This document shows positions 1-7,730 of a stretch of 64,000 nt of DNA, one piece after another; the stretch's first letter is position 1, and each line of letters begins with the position of its first letter. The translations under genes and the position numbers were made by a program. This stretch comes from Nitrospiria bacterium (GTDB lineage: Bacteria > Nitrospirota > Nitrospiria > JACQBZ01). The notes under the pieces are model-generated. The model was not told where the DNA came from. It saw nothing but the letters and a program-made list of their open reading frames with translations, and did no database searches. The stretch spans positions 1 through 64,000 of the forward strand of contig DATKAN010000026.1 in assembly GCA_035498035.1 (NCBI GenBank). Direction: 5' to 3'.

Positions 1-24
1 ATTGATTCAGTCCGGGTTTTCGGC

Positions 25-53
25 TTGACACGCCCCACCGTTTGTAGTAGCGT
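25..53 (+). promoter_or_regulatory. Putative sigma-70 promoter for the membrane spermidine-synthase-like gene
   Basis: An exact TTGACA box lies at 25-30 and, after 17 nt, a poor TAGCGT at 48-53. It is the only promoter-like pair seen ahead of the gene at 179. The weak -10 and the overlapping palindrome suggest an activated or repressed promoter. Inferred from consensus only. Confidence 0.4.
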
Positions 54-75
54 GAATCGAATTTGTTGATTCACG
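51..75. promoter_or_regulatory. Operator-like inverted repeat
   Basis: CGTGAATC at 51-58 is matched by a perfect inverted copy, GATTCACG, at 68-75, with a 9-nt centre. It overlaps the presumed -10 region and transcription start. That is where a dimeric repressor would bind. No T tract follows on either strand, so a terminator is less likely. A second, smaller hairpin (ATCCGAA/TTCGGAT, 136-155) lies in the presumed leader. Confidence 0.4.
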
Positions 76-178
76 AGGCCCAGTGAAGGCATGACCCCTG
101 ATAGCGGTTTAATTCCCCGCAAGTATTTACTCCCAATCCGAATCCTTCTTCGGATCCCACTTTAATCGACGGTATGGA

Positions 179-3061
179 ATGACCCTTCTCATCTGCGCGA
201 TCTTCTTCATTTCAGGGTCGTCGGCACTCATCTTCGAGACCCTCTGGTTTCATCAGGCGGGGCTGGCGCTCGGCAACAGCGTTTGGGCTTCCAGCCTGGT
301 TCTCTCGGGTTTCATGGGCGGGCTCGCCTTGGGCAATGCGCTGGCCGCGCGATACGGGGATCGCCTCGGTAACCCGGTACGCGTCTATGCCATGGTCGAA
401 TTGGCCATCGCAATATCCGGAATCGGCCTGGTCGTTCTGTTCCCGGTCCTCGGAGCGGAGCTTGCGCCCTGGTTTCGGCCGCTGTTGGAACATCCATGGA
501 TCTTGAACCCCGTTCGGCTCTTCCTGGCATTCATCTTGCTGCTCATTCCCTCCACGGCGATGGGGGTGACGCTGCCCTTGTTGACGAAGGTTCTTACGGC
601 CTATGATCCCAATTTTGGCCGGGTGCTGGGGAGGCTCTATGGATGGAACACTCTCGGCGCGGTGATCGGGGTGGTGGTGGGCGAGACCTACTTCATCGGT
701 GTTTTCGGAGTGCACGGGACCGCGTTGATGGCGGGAATGTTGAACATGGCCGCCGCCGCCGTCGCGGTGGGGATCTCCCAAATGGCCTCCCCGCAGGCGT
801 CGTCCCCTTCGGGGGCGGGCCGACGACCCCTTTACCGGACCGCGGAATGGCGCTGGCTTGCCTCGGCGTTTGTATCGGGATTCTGCCTTCTCGCTTTGGA
901 GGTTGTCTGGTTTCGTTTCCTCTTGCTCTTTGTCATGGGCCATGCGATGGCCTTTGCGCTGATGCTGGCCGTAGTTTTGGCGGGCATTGCGCTGGGCGGT
1001 CTGGCTGCGTCCCTATGGATGCGCATCTTACCGGAGGCCCATCGCTTCGGTTCGCCGCTGGCCTTTTCGGCCGGGCTTTTGTGCGTGGGCTCCTACGCCG
1101 CGTTTCCGCTGGCCCTCCAGCCCTTTGCGGCCTCCCCCTACGTGATCACCGGTCCGGTCGAGATTCTACGGGTCGGAGCGCCCCTCATGTTTCCCGTTTC
1201 ATTTCTTTCCGGTATTTTCTTCACGCTGGTCGGGGCCGCCCTGCGTCACAGCCTGGCCTCCGAAACCGCAACCACCGGCATCCTCACCCTGGCCAATACC
1301 GTGGGGGCCGCGTTGGGTGCGCTGGTCGCCGGGTTCTTTTTTCTCCCGGTCTTGGGAATGGAGAAGTCGCTTTTCTTCATCGCCCTGCTCTATGGGGGAA
1401 TCGGGGCCCTGCTGTGGCCCGGGAGTCCGATCCCGCGGCGGATCGCGTTCGCGGGCGCGGCCGTGTTTCTGGTGGGCGCGGCGCTCTTTCCCTTCGGGTT
1501 GATGGAAAATCGTCTTCTTCAGGTTCCCGTGAAGCGGTATCTTCATGGAGACGCCGCCGGCAAGGTCGCGGGCCTTCGCGAGGGTCTCACCGAAACCATC
1601 ATTTACTTCGAAAAGGAGATGCTGGGAAGACCGCTGTCCTACACGATGCTGACCAACTCATATTCGATGTCCGGGACGGGAATTTCCTCTCGACGCTACA
1701 TGAAGTTGTTTGTCTACTGGCCGATGGCGGTCCACCCGAACCTCAAACGGGCCCTCCTGATCTGCTACGGGGTCGGGAACACGGCCAAGGCGTTGACGGA
1801 CTCGAAAAGCCTGGAGTCCATCGATGTCGTCGACATTTCCAGGGATGTTCTGGAGATGAACGACATCGTCTATCCGAAGCCCGCCGACCGTCCTTTGCAG
1901 GACCCCCGGGTTCGTGTCCACATCGAAGACGGGCGCTACTTTCTGCAAACGACGGACCGGGACTTCGATCTGATCACGGCGGAACCGCCCCCGCCCGGGA
2001 TTGCCGGTGTTGAAAACCTTTACACGCGCGAGTACTTTCAGCTGCTTCACGACCGGCTGTCCGAAGGCGGAATCGTCACGTATTGGCTGCCGCTGCATTC
2101 GCTCACGGATGTGAGCACCAAGGCCATCCTTCGGGCCTTTTGCGACGCCTTCGAGGACTGTTCGCTTTGGAACGCGATGGGGACCAGTTTGATGATGGCG
2201 GGAACCCGCCATGCCCAGGGGCCGGTCTCCGAGGAGCAGTTTACCCGGCAGTGGGACGACCCGGTTGTGGCGCCCGAGATGAGGGCGGTGGGGTTCGAGC
2301 GGCCCGAACAGCTCGGTGCGCTCTATATCGGAGATGCCGAGTTTGTGAAACGCCTCGTCGGGGACTCGCCGCCCCTCGTCGACAATTATCCAAAGCTGAT
2401 CGAGGCTCCCTTAGGGTCCCAAGAGGAGGTCGGGCGGCTCTTTCGGGGCTTCACCGATATGGACGCCGCGAGGGAACGCTTTCGAAACAGCCCCCTCATC
2501 AAACGCCTCTGGCCGGAACAACTGCTGACCGCCTCCCTGCCTTACTTCGGCGTTCAGGATATTATCAACGCCCACTGGTACGGTACGATGCAAAGGGAGC
2601 ATCCCGGGTACGAAGACGCCCATGCCCTCCTGACCCGGTCTTCCCTGAGCACCGCGGTCCTCTGGCGTTTGGGGAGTGATCCGGACATTCAACGCATCGT
2701 GGCCGAGGCCGGGCCGGCGGAACGGGCCGACCCCCTTCTGCAGTACCATCTCGGGATACGCTTCATATCGGAGCGGAATTATTCCGCGGCCGTCGAGCCT
2801 CTCGCACGGGCCGGGCAACTCCCGCAGGTTCGCCAAGAGGCTTTTCGCCTCGCCGTCTATGCCCTCGCGATGTCGGGGCGGATCGACCAGGCTCAGAAAA
2901 TGGCGCAGGAGCGATTTTCCCAGCTCCTGATGACGGCGAAAGGCCCGGCCGTGAAATCCCCGGGCGAAATTCCTCTCCCTCCGTTCTGGCAGTGGATGAA
3001 GGAAACTTTCGGAATCGATCCCCGCGTGACCGCCCCCGTTCCACAGGGGGCCCCGAAATGA
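179..3061 (+). CDS. Polytopic membrane protein fused to a spermidine-synthase-like domain
   Basis: This 960-residue protein has about a dozen hydrophobic helices in roughly residues 1-440. A Rossmann-type methyltransferase/spermidine-synthase-like domain follows at about 480-720, with the nucleotide-binding loop CYGVGNTAK near residue 529, VVDISRDVLEM, and EDGRYFL near 584. A helical tail of about 200 residues completes it. Fusions of a transporter-like membrane half with a SpeE-like half are widespread and mostly of unknown substrate. The position that carries the catalytic Asp in true aminopropyltransferases (D-x-x-D-P) reads TAEPPPP near residue 600, so classical spermidine synthesis is doubtful. 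No clear ribosome-binding site precedes the ATG. The gene stands alone and is followed convergently by the RTX cassette. Confidence 0.85.
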   Translation: MTLLICAIFFISGSSALIFETLWFHQAGLALGNSVWASSLVLSGFMGGLALGNALAARYGDRLGNPVRVYAMVELAIAISGIGLVVLFPVLGAELAPWFRPLLEHPWILNPVRLFLAFILLLIPSTAMGVTLPLLTKVLTAYDPNFGRVLGRLYGWNTLGAVIGVVVGETYFIGVFGVHGTALMAGMLNMAAAAVAVGISQMASPQASSPSGAGRRPLYRTAEWRWLASAFVSGFCLLALEVVWFRFLLLFVMGHAMAFALMLAVVLAGIALGGLAASLWMRILPEAHRFGSPLAFSAGLLCVGSYAAFPLALQPFAASPYVITGPVEILRVGAPLMFPVSFLSGIFFTLVGAALRHSLASETATTGILTLANTVGAALGALVAGFFFLPVLGMEKSLFFIALLYGGIGALLWPGSPIPRRIAFAGAAVFLVGAALFPFGLMENRLLQVPVKRYLHGDAAGKVAGLREGLTETIIYFEKEMLGRPLSYTMLTNSYSMSGTGISSRRYMKLFVYWPMAVHPNLKRALLICYGVGNTAKALTDSKSLESIDVVDISRDVLEMNDIVYPKPADRPLQDPRVRVHIEDGRYFLQTTDRDFDLITAEPPPPGIAGVENLYTREYFQLLHDRLSEGGIVTYWLPLHSLTDVSTKAILRAFCDAFEDCSLWNAMGTSLMMAGTRHAQGPVSEEQFTRQWDDPVVAPEMRAVGFERPEQLGALYIGDAEFVKRLVGDSPPLVDNYPKLIEAPLGSQEEVGRLFRGFTDMDAARERFRNSPLIKRLWPEQLLTASLPYFGVQDIINAHWYGTMQREHPGYEDAHALLTRSSLSTAVLWRLGSDPDIQRIVAEAGPAERADPLLQYHLGIRFISERNYSAAVEPLARAGQLPQVRQEAFRLAVYALAMSGRIDQAQKMAQERFSQLLMTAKGPAVKSPGEIPLPPFWQWMKETFGIDPRVTAPVPQGAPK

Positions 3062-4005: not shown

Positions 4006-4890
4006 CTAATCTTCCTTTAATGTCTTCAGCAGCGTCCTTGCCATCTCGCTGACACCCGGATCGGGATCATTTACGGCCTGGTTCAGCGGACCCAGCGCGG
4101 CCTGCCCGTTCCGCTCGGCCAACAGCATCAAGGCATCCATCCGATGTTCGGGGCTCGCGTCCCTCAAAGCCACCTCGGATAATGGCTCAAGCGGGACAGG
4201 CCCGTCTCCATCCTTCAAGACTTCCAAAGCCGCCTCTCGAACCTGTGAATCCTCGTCCGAAAGGCCGGCAATCACCGCTTGAAGGGTCTCCATCCTTTTT
4301 TCTTCAGCCTCCTCCTTTAAAGTGGTTATGGCGGTCATTCGAGCTTGAGGATCAATTGTCGCCGCCGACTCGCGCGCCCGATCCTTTCCAGCGTCGGACG
4401 TTCCAAGGGATCCCTCTCGGCCACGAGAAACAATCATGAAATCGGCGTCCCGCTGGGCCGTGCCCGGTCCCGAATTCTTTGATACCACCCTGATCTCAAC
4501 AACCTTTGGAACGGGCGTACGACCATTTGAAAAAGAAGTTCGAGCGTAGGTTAGGGCATAGCTCTTGCCCTGCAGTATCCGCCGGATTCCTTCCTCCAGC
4601 GGGAGATTGTTGAATTCGGCCGAGACGGTTTCATTTGCAACAGAACGATCCAGAGAGGTCTCGACATTCGTAAGCTGGGCTAGCTTTTCCAGGACGTTTA
4701 TTAAGGATACCGCCACAATCTTTGCGCTCAGATGATTGTCTTTGAGGGTCAGAACAAACGGTGGATCGGAAACGGAGGCGGCGTTTATGTTTTTTTCCCA
4801 CAGAACGAGGAATGGCAGAATGAATGCGCCCGTTAACGCCAAAACCCTGAACTGTGTTCGATGGTCTTTCATGCGGGAGGATCGTTCCAA
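4006..4890 (-). CDS. Secreted STN-like/HEAT-repeat protein, cassette copy 1
   Basis: This is a 294-residue hypothetical protein. Its N-terminal signal sequence has a hydrophobic core LALTGAFILPFLVL, with export likely before about residue 38. A region at about 45-120 (VLEKLAQLTN, NLPLEEGIRRILQGKSYALTY) resembles the STN fold of secretins and TonB receptors. A charged linker leads to two or three HEAT-type helical repeats at about 190-290. The start is placed at a TTG codon because AAGGAG lies 7 nt upstream; the in-frame ATG six codons later has no such site. The protein is clearly paralogous to the one at 6737. It heads the unit that ends with the RTX gene at 3184. STN and HEAT regions usually mediate protein contacts, but no partner is known. 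Confidence 0.75.
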   Translation of the reverse strand: MERSSRMKDHRTQFRVLALTGAFILPFLVLWEKNINAASVSDPPFVLTLKDNHLSAKIVAVSLINVLEKLAQLTNVETSLDRSVANETVSAEFNNLPLEEGIRRILQGKSYALTYARTSFSNGRTPVPKVVEIRVVSKNSGPGTAQRDADFMIVSRGREGSLGTSDAGKDRARESAATIDPQARMTAITTLKEEAEEKRMETLQAVIAGLSDEDSQVREAALEVLKDGDGPVPLEPLSEVALRDASPEHRMDALMLLAERNGQAALGPLNQAVNDPDPGVSEMARTLLKTLKED

Positions 4891-5032: not shown

Positions 5033-5290
5033 TAAGAGATACTGTTATCTATCAATCGCTAAGCAGGTGTCTTATTAATTTCATCTCTCTTGACGACAGC
5101 AGAACAGCCATGTTTTCTACAAAGATAATAGAATAAAGGATTGTTTGTTAAGCCTTTCTCAAGAGGTTATTGAAAGAATGTAAATTAAGATGGCTCACTT
5201 TCTGGCCTAATTTGAATCGTGACGCTGTCTTGAATTTCACTATACGCAGTCTATGTCCCTATCTTTCGTGATATCATAGAAAAATGTTGG

Positions 5291-5340
5291 CACGAAAAAC
5301 AAAGAAGCCTTCTCCCGAGCATTCGCTCAGAAGAAGGCTT
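5291..5340 (-). terminator. Intrinsic terminator inside the cassette 1 leader
   Basis: AAGCCTTCT (5305-5313) pairs with AGAAGGCTT (5332-5340), extended by an inner GAGC/GCTC stem around a 4-nt loop. On the minus strand the stem is followed by CTTTGTTTTT. It lies about 170 nt downstream of the transcription start inferred from the promoter at 5520-5550 and 400 nt short of the STN/HEAT start. Confidence 0.65.
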
Positions 5341-5513
5341 ATATTTTGTAACCCGAAAGCCTGACGGCCAAAGAGGGCGCAAGAGCTTCATCCTCATAGA
5401 GAAGCCCTAAGCACCATTATAATCCACAGGAGGCCCTTAGTTCCCTGTGGGAAGTGCCCAGCCTCTAATAAGAAGTAACTTTTAAAGCTTTGGGAAAATT
5501 TTTAAATAAAATA
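5291..5513 (-). ncRNA. Putative structured non-coding RNA or attenuating leader
   Basis: A promoter-like block at 5520-5550 and a terminator at 5291-5340 bracket about 220 nt without an open frame. Inside are a perfect CCACAGG/CCTGTGG stem (5424-5450), GCTTC/GAAGC (5385-5405), GAGGC/GCCTC and GCCTGACGGC pairings, and an internal TATAAT on the minus strand. The length suits a 6S-like RNA, but I could not match the sequence to 6S, SRP, tmRNA or a riboswitch class I know. It could equally be a transcription-attenuating leader of the downstream STN/HEAT gene. Transcription is inferred. Confidence 0.4.
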
Positions 5514-5519
5514 ATAAAG

Positions 5520-5550
5520 AATATAAGCATATATGCGGGCTAAATGTCAA
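5520..5550 (-). promoter_or_regulatory. Promoter block of cassette 1, shared with cassette 2
   Basis: On the minus strand an exact TTGACA (5545-5550) is followed after 19 nt by TATATT (5520-5525). The -35 box and its upstream flank (5542-5561) match 20 consecutive bases of the block ahead of the STN/HEAT gene of cassette 2 (7635-7654). A GGGTTTTTG tail beyond it is also shared. Conservation of a -35 region and upstream flank alone suggests a common activator or upstream element. Confidence 0.55.
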
Positions 5551-5810
5551 CTACACAAAAGTGGGTTTTTGAAGTAACCATGAAAGGGTTATCCTTCTGT
5601 GATGCCTTTATTCCTTTTCCGCCTTATAAAGTCCAAGCCTAGATTTCCTGGTTGATTGCATCGATTGAAGATAAGTGTTCGTATTCCCGAGGGGTCTACG
5701 GAGATGACGTCAACTCCGGTACGAGGATCCGGAGAAGGGGAGTTAAGGGCTTGACAAGACCTGACCTCGATCTCTGATCCGGAAGAACGGTCGGAGATGG
5801 ATGGGAAAAA

Positions 5811-5844
5811 AGAAAAAAACCGCCCCGCCGGTTCGGCGGGGCGG
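5811..5844 (-). terminator. Rho-independent terminator of RTX cassette 2
   Basis: CCGCCCCGCCG (5820-5830) pairs with its complement (5834-5844) across a 3-nt loop, followed on the minus strand by a U run interrupted by one C. The stem is identical to that of the cassette 1 terminator at 3149-3173. Confidence 0.9.
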
Positions 5845-5879
5845 TTTTCCTTGCTCAGGGGAACCTTCCGGTCCCCAAA

Positions 5880-7613: not shown

Positions 7614-7643
7614 ACTATACCCATAACTTATGGAAAATGTCAA
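7614..7643 (-). promoter_or_regulatory. Promoter of cassette 2
   Basis: TTGACA (7638-7643) and TATAGT (7614-7619) are separated by 18 nt on the minus strand. The inferred start lies about 34 nt before the ATG at 7573. The sequence from the -35 box upstream is nearly identical to the block at 5542-5570. Confidence 0.65.
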
Positions 7644-7730
7644 CTACACAAAAGAAGGGTTTTTGGGGGATGGAAATGGGCCGTTGGCTCGGAAAGCCTG
7701 CTGGGGCAGTTTAATGATAATTCTTCCGCG

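Follow-up and report, generated by a model that had tools for sequence, protein, structure and literature searches.

Attenuators normally serve a single operon of a single pathway. Attenuation of pyrBI in Escherichia coli works by ribosome proximity (PMC5021804), and in the same organism termination fell from approximately 90% to less than 10% when a stop codon was shifted to 5 bp ahead of a terminator, with no effect beyond approximately 27 nt (PMC4824070). A terminator that lies less than 100 bp into a coding region can evade ribosomes when there is no pause site (PMC4824070). Here we describe, from an uncultured Nitrospirota genus, one promoter, leader and terminator that instead recur ahead of the genes for many exported, adhesin-like proteins of unrelated kinds. 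The leader is new, genus-restricted and attenuator-like, and its general kind is already known.

The stretch of DNA that we analysed (64,000 nt, hereafter the window) contains two cassettes with a common promoter. An earlier note on this sequence placed this promoter 34 nt ahead of the gene in cassette 2 as against about 620 nt in cassette 1, and re-measurement proved these distances right (about 34 nt from the start site to ATG 7573; about 620–640 nt to TTG 4890 or ATG 4872). The stretch in between was suggested to be either a captured small RNA of about 220 nt or an attenuator or riboswitch. Our own reading, that the minus-strand block 5562–5296 belongs to a set of dispersed promoter-attenuator units specific to the genus, has in our judgment even prospects of being correct.

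Results

Along the minus strand, the box promoter is followed by the leader, the terminator, about 430 nt of AT-rich DNA and an exported STN/HEAT gene (Table 1). The terminator stem consists of 16 pairs (8 G-C) closed by a loop of 4 and followed by CTTTGTTTTT. Its sequence, AAGCCUUCUUCUGAGC, is nearly invariant across copies, with some one-sided changes that keep the pairing. The RNA from 5513 to 5291 (223 nt) folds better than 200 of 200 dinucleotide shuffles (z = -5.2), a value to which the terminator itself contributes much. The earlier description of a structured stretch ending in an intrinsic terminator (5291–5340) stands. Outside the terminator the fold appears weakly conserved: helices P1 and P2 have few compensatory changes, mostly from copy C45; two-sided changes occur in 4 of 37 pairs, and a permutation test of helices drawn by hand gives P = 0.07; the minimum-energy structures predicted for individual copies do not agree with one another; and the AGGGCCU loop of P2 is lost in the copies of genome G002. 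A switch between P1 and a hairpin involving the Shine-Dalgarno sequence, which had seemed appealing on visual inspection, was dropped because the computed accessibility of this sequence, with and without the 5' strand of P1, gave no consistent direction. Elsewhere in the window, at 5813–5851, the RTX gene of cassette 2 is followed by a very strong terminator hairpin, which is flanked on each side by T runs and is probably bidirectional.

Table 1. Features of the window and genes that follow the nine leader copies examined.
Feature	Position	Strand	Remarks
Cassette 1 promoter box	5562–5545	minus	ACTTTTGTGTAGTTGACA
Cassette 1 box region	5545–5562	minus	ACTTTTGTGTAG + -35 TTGACA
Cassette 1 -10 element	~5526–5520	minus	TTATAT/TATATT; predicted start site ~5513
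Conserved leader block	5386–5471	minus	UUAGAGGC..GGGCAC / hairpin CACAGG-(..AGGGCCU)-CCUGUG / GGCUUCUCUAU-GAGGAU
Hairpin P2	5424–5451	minus	CACAGG:CCUGUG, conserved loop AGGGCCU
Candidate Shine-Dalgarno of leader ORF	5390–5395	minus	GAGGAU
Candidate leader ORF	5251–5382	minus	LRPLWPSGFRVTKYKPSSERMLGRRLLCFSCQHFSMISRKIGT; TTG start, 43 codons, open through terminator
Intrinsic terminator	5296–5340	minus	stem 5340–5305 + U-rich tail
Cassette 1 gene	4006–4872	minus	exported STN (weak)/HEAT protein; ATG 4872, alternative TTG 4890
Cassette 2 box	7638–7655	minus	same box without leader, upstream of STN/HEAT paralogue 7573–6737
Cassette 2 -10 element	7619–7614	minus	TATAGT
Leader copy C26 (window)			next gene STN/HEAT
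Leader copy C65:4892			next gene 413-aa exported protein, without Pfam match
Leader copy C2			next gene NHL
Leader copy C45			after tandem leaders, NHL/InlB-B-repeat protein
Leader copy C49			next gene CARDB/PKD
Leader copy C65:34333			next gene CARDB/FG-GAP lipoprotein
Leader copy G002:C10			next gene Laminin_G/Big_2/PKD, 1511 aa
Leader copy G002:C37			next gene TPR
Leader copy G001:C66			sole copy without exported gene; rimP-like gene ~250 nt on

The comparison covered three genomes of one groundwater Nitrospirota genus: that of the window (G000), G001 and G002 (contig JACQBZ010000096 of a groundwater Nitrospirae MAG). Searching the window's genome with the minus strand of 5600–4880 returned two more copies of leader plus terminator, C65 and C2, at 72–74% identity and, apart from these leader matches, six further copies of the box. 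Additional leaders were collected from the sequence downstream of each box and by DNA search of the relatives. With a covariance model, eight copies across three species of the genus score strongly (E values of 5e-24 to 2e-31), the model having been built from those same eight copies after seeding by plain DNA search. Five are in the window's genome (C26, which is the window copy, C65, C2, C49 and C45), C66 is in G001, and C10 and C37 are in G002. Three weak matches stand outside the model (the second leader at C45, C65:34333 and G001:C37; E ~2e-5). The box precedes the leader copies and is degenerate at C2 and G002:C37; at C45 two leaders lie in tandem, each with its own promoter. The homologous loci envisaged in the earlier note exist and retain the terminator; the structure beyond the terminator is weakly conserved in them.

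Neither 270 genomes of the class nor a sample of 396 genomes of the phylum contained a match to the covariance model outside the genus, and viral contigs contained neither the promoter pattern nor the terminator pattern. The Rfam family that the earlier note had proposed to look for did not emerge: searches of the window and the copies in gathering and E-value modes returned only two tRNAs and chance matches. tRNA/tmRNA and 6S RNA were considered, without a match. We also observed another type of leader, different from the first but with the same box, a related terminator and a strong fold (z = -3.0), which follows the first type in tandem at G000:C45 35841–36136 (L030 7842–8140) and stands alone behind purF at G001:C37 143–466 (L072).

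The box, which may also be written ACTTTYGTGTAGTTGACA, occurs 11 times in the window's genome at up to 3 mismatches, and the reversed pattern does not occur there; at least nine genome sites have the box besides cassettes 1 and 2. Hexamers resembling a -10 element lie at a spacing of 17/18, with a mean of 3.95 of 6 matches (20 sites, three genomes), compared with 1.82 at random positions. Boxes without a leader are found upstream of cassette 2, a PilZ protein, an NHL lipoprotein and an exported protein of 146 aa, and in G002 upstream of two tandem Thr-rich exported proteins. Since these leaderless genes also have the box, the box marks a mostly surface-protein regulon, of which the leader is an optional part.

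Several box loci deserve mention in their own right. The PilZ-domain gene (G000:C4 7089–6723, minus strand; L032) hints at a tie of the regulon to c-di-GMP and surface life. The Thr-rich pair (G002:C1, L070 3760–5261) encodes near-identical proteins with long Thr-rich repeats, each with a box before it. Adjoining the C65 leader is a small divergent helix-turn-helix gene with a weak HTH_3 match (G000:C65, L028 4315–4764, minus strand), the product of which is a possible candidate for a regulator of the box. The spermidine-synthase-like gene at window 1–179 has only a degenerate TTGACA; the corresponding gene in the sister genome G001 has the box (G001:C39, L073 5728). At G000:C4 13815 (L032), a box is followed by a leader of about 800 nt with repeated TCTTCTGGGGGTAGAAGATG-like words, without a covariance-model match, before an exported protein.

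The next gene is co-directional with the leader in all nine copies examined (Table 1). In eight of them it encodes an exported protein with a signal peptide or lipobox, both judged by eye, and these proteins belong to unrelated families. The distance from stem to gene start is only 15 nt at G002:C37 and 33 nt at C65:34333, and 88–131 nt in four more copies. At C2, the gene frame is continuous with the leader, and the ATG of the leader ORF is the only usable start seen for the exported gene. Three loci (G002:C37, C65:34333 and C2) thus leave no space for a second promoter. With gaps this short or absent, all these genes should need read-through for their expression, barring a concealed promoter in the gap. 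Least clear-cut is the window copy, in which 432 nt separate the terminator from the gene; this stretch holds a weak promoter-like site (5151–5122), and the gene may have its own promoter. Close orthologues of both STN/HEAT cassettes were sought in the sister genomes, and none was found.

Between P2 and the terminator, the most conserved words are GAGGAU and, 7–9 nt later, CCATGCGCCCT. The nine copies have a start codon at this position (TTG, ATG, ATG, ATG, GTG, ATG, ATG, ATG and TTG), and seven of the nine have a Shine-Dalgarno sequence of the GAGG/AGGA type, of ordinary strength. Judged by these motifs, GAGGAU and the following ATG/GTG/TTG resemble the ribosome-binding site and start codon of a short leader ORF. 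The predicted N-terminal peptides include MRPAWRAGNR, MRPPWKSGYR, LRPLWPSGFR, MRRPSRFGHR, VYAPWRVGNR and MPPTWRLSIT, in which Gly and Arg codons differ synonymously. Compared with column shuffles, the MRPxWRxGxR block gives P = 0.007 (5 copies) or 0.015 (6 copies) for a frame picked post hoc and for related copies, the statistics of which overstate independence; a peptide signal at P of about 0.01 is no more than suggestive. The G002 peptides, MPSEAIDTGG and LSSKAINTRG, are unlike MRPxW, and this pair has no differences (0/9) at the second codon position. In all nine copies the ORF either stops short of the stem by 7 or 3 nt, ends within the 5' arm or continues through the stem. We set aside the length of the open frame as proof of coding because the +1 frame of the leader is open to much the same degree. 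The compared leader peptides contain no common run of codons for one amino acid.

Discussion

Taken on its own, the assignment of the unit as an attenuator is probable. It is favored over a captured small RNA because the leader recurs before exported-protein genes and because three loci have no room for another promoter. Transcription would start at the box-containing promoter and give a leader of about 215 nt, at the intrinsic terminator of which RNA polymerase would stop by default, and the exported-protein gene downstream would be expressed only upon read-through. Read-through would most likely be set by translation of the short leader ORF, which starts about 40 nt before the stem: a ribosome close behind RNA polymerase would cover the 5' arm of the terminator, as in E. 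coli pyrBI. We propose such translation-coupled attenuation because the ORFs end at or in the terminator and because E. coli ribosomes suppress nearby terminators. This leader-ORF mechanism is a serious possibility, to which we give slightly less than even weight; three parts of the proposal are inferred, namely that control is exerted at read-through, that the ORF is translated and which signal is sensed.

The small-RNA half of the earlier suggestion, generalized to a family of independent RNAs (~215 nt) that act in trans, have their promoter in common with the exported-protein regulon and lie before genes incidentally, would account for the promoter and strong terminator of each copy, for the multiple copies, which known sRNA families can also have, for the orphan copy G001:C66 and for the 432-nt gap in the window. 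Position before mostly surface-protein genes is however a pattern that fits a cis-acting attenuator and is unexpected for an independent sRNA, and the uniform orientation of all nine copies, the eight exported-protein genes and the three loci without promoter space make such a family unlikely. An sRNA is a possible alternative in the case of the window copy, given the roughly 430 nt between its terminator and the gene. Less probable again is a metabolite riboswitch, in which P1/P2 would form the aptamer and the terminator would act as expression platform. The conserved hairpin P2 with its AGGGCCU loop, a possible long-range P1, the conserved terminator and the z-score of the window copy would suit it, but the targets are surface proteins of unrelated families with no pathway, the leader is confined to one genus, covariation is weak and the loop is gone from the G002 copies. 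The riboswitch part of the earlier suggestion is thus not supported, since no ligand-binding core was recognized, Rfam was negative and the fold outside the terminator is weakly conserved; translation of an ORF in the leader is the more promising lead.

The short conserved motifs in and beside the hairpins could also be read as binding sites: a CsrA-like protein or a dedicated antiterminator acting on AGGGCCU/GAGGAU would control the terminator or leader translation, and the PilZ gene with the common promoter hints at a sessile-lifestyle regulon. Ribosome binding is yet the simpler account of GAGGAU, and we rate protein-dependent antitermination, if anything, below a riboswitch. Least credible of all is an inert relic or recombination by-product, in which the leader plays no part in regulation and the promoter-leader block was dispersed as a repeat. 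Such a relic would explain why the G002 copies are more alike than they are to sister-genome counterparts and why cassette 2 can do without the leader, but stem, tail and start codon with Shine-Dalgarno sequence are retained in otherwise diverged copies.

Returning to the attenuator reading, the relations between copies bear on how the unit may have spread. The C10 and C37 leaders of G002 are more alike than C10 is to G001:C66, which occupies the corresponding position (both lie upstream of rimP). C10 and C49 have the signal peptide and downstream flank in common, but their leaders differ. The pattern suggests that leaders evolve in concert or were copied from one locus to another. It is a tentative and rather doubtful extension that a dispersed unit, copied between loci and evolving in concert, puts unrelated surface and exported proteins under one translation-coupled termination gate, the regulon being set by a portable leader instead of a pathway or ligand. 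The recurrence of one unit before so many unrelated genes would show how a bacterium wires surface proteins into one regulon via leader copying, and would allow the control of terminators by nearby ribosomes to be tested beyond model organisms.

Comparison with known systems

Riboswitch leaders in Rfam likewise combine a structured 5' leader with an intrinsic terminator; in contrast, the leader described here has no Rfam match and no recognized ligand core and occurs in one genus. Attenuators of the trp, his and ilv type resemble it in having a leader peptide (a candidate here), a terminator and a co-directional target. They differ in that our copies have no common one-amino-acid codon run, no consistent antiterminator and targets unrelated to amino acids, and in that the ORF ends at the terminator, whereas theirs ends more than 20 bp before it (PMC4824070). 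The tandem attenuators of Salmonella mgtCBR (PMC3641672) involve a long leader with short ORFs that control transcription of the coding region, of which the C45 tandem is reminiscent; there, a single operon is controlled, whereas here the copies are dispersed and no such sensing is indicated. The pyrBI (pyrL) attenuator of E. coli is alike in geometry, in that an intrinsic terminator lies in or directly behind a short leader ORF (a candidate here), such that a trailing ribosome would suppress termination (PMC4824070, PMC5021804), and here, too, the terminator separates the promoter from a target gene of the same orientation. UTP-sensitive pausing is a feature of pyrBI, and its target is a biosynthetic operon; the present unit, by contrast, precedes exported proteins, recurs in several dispersed copies with one promoter type, and has an ORF that reaches the stem after only about 40 nt.
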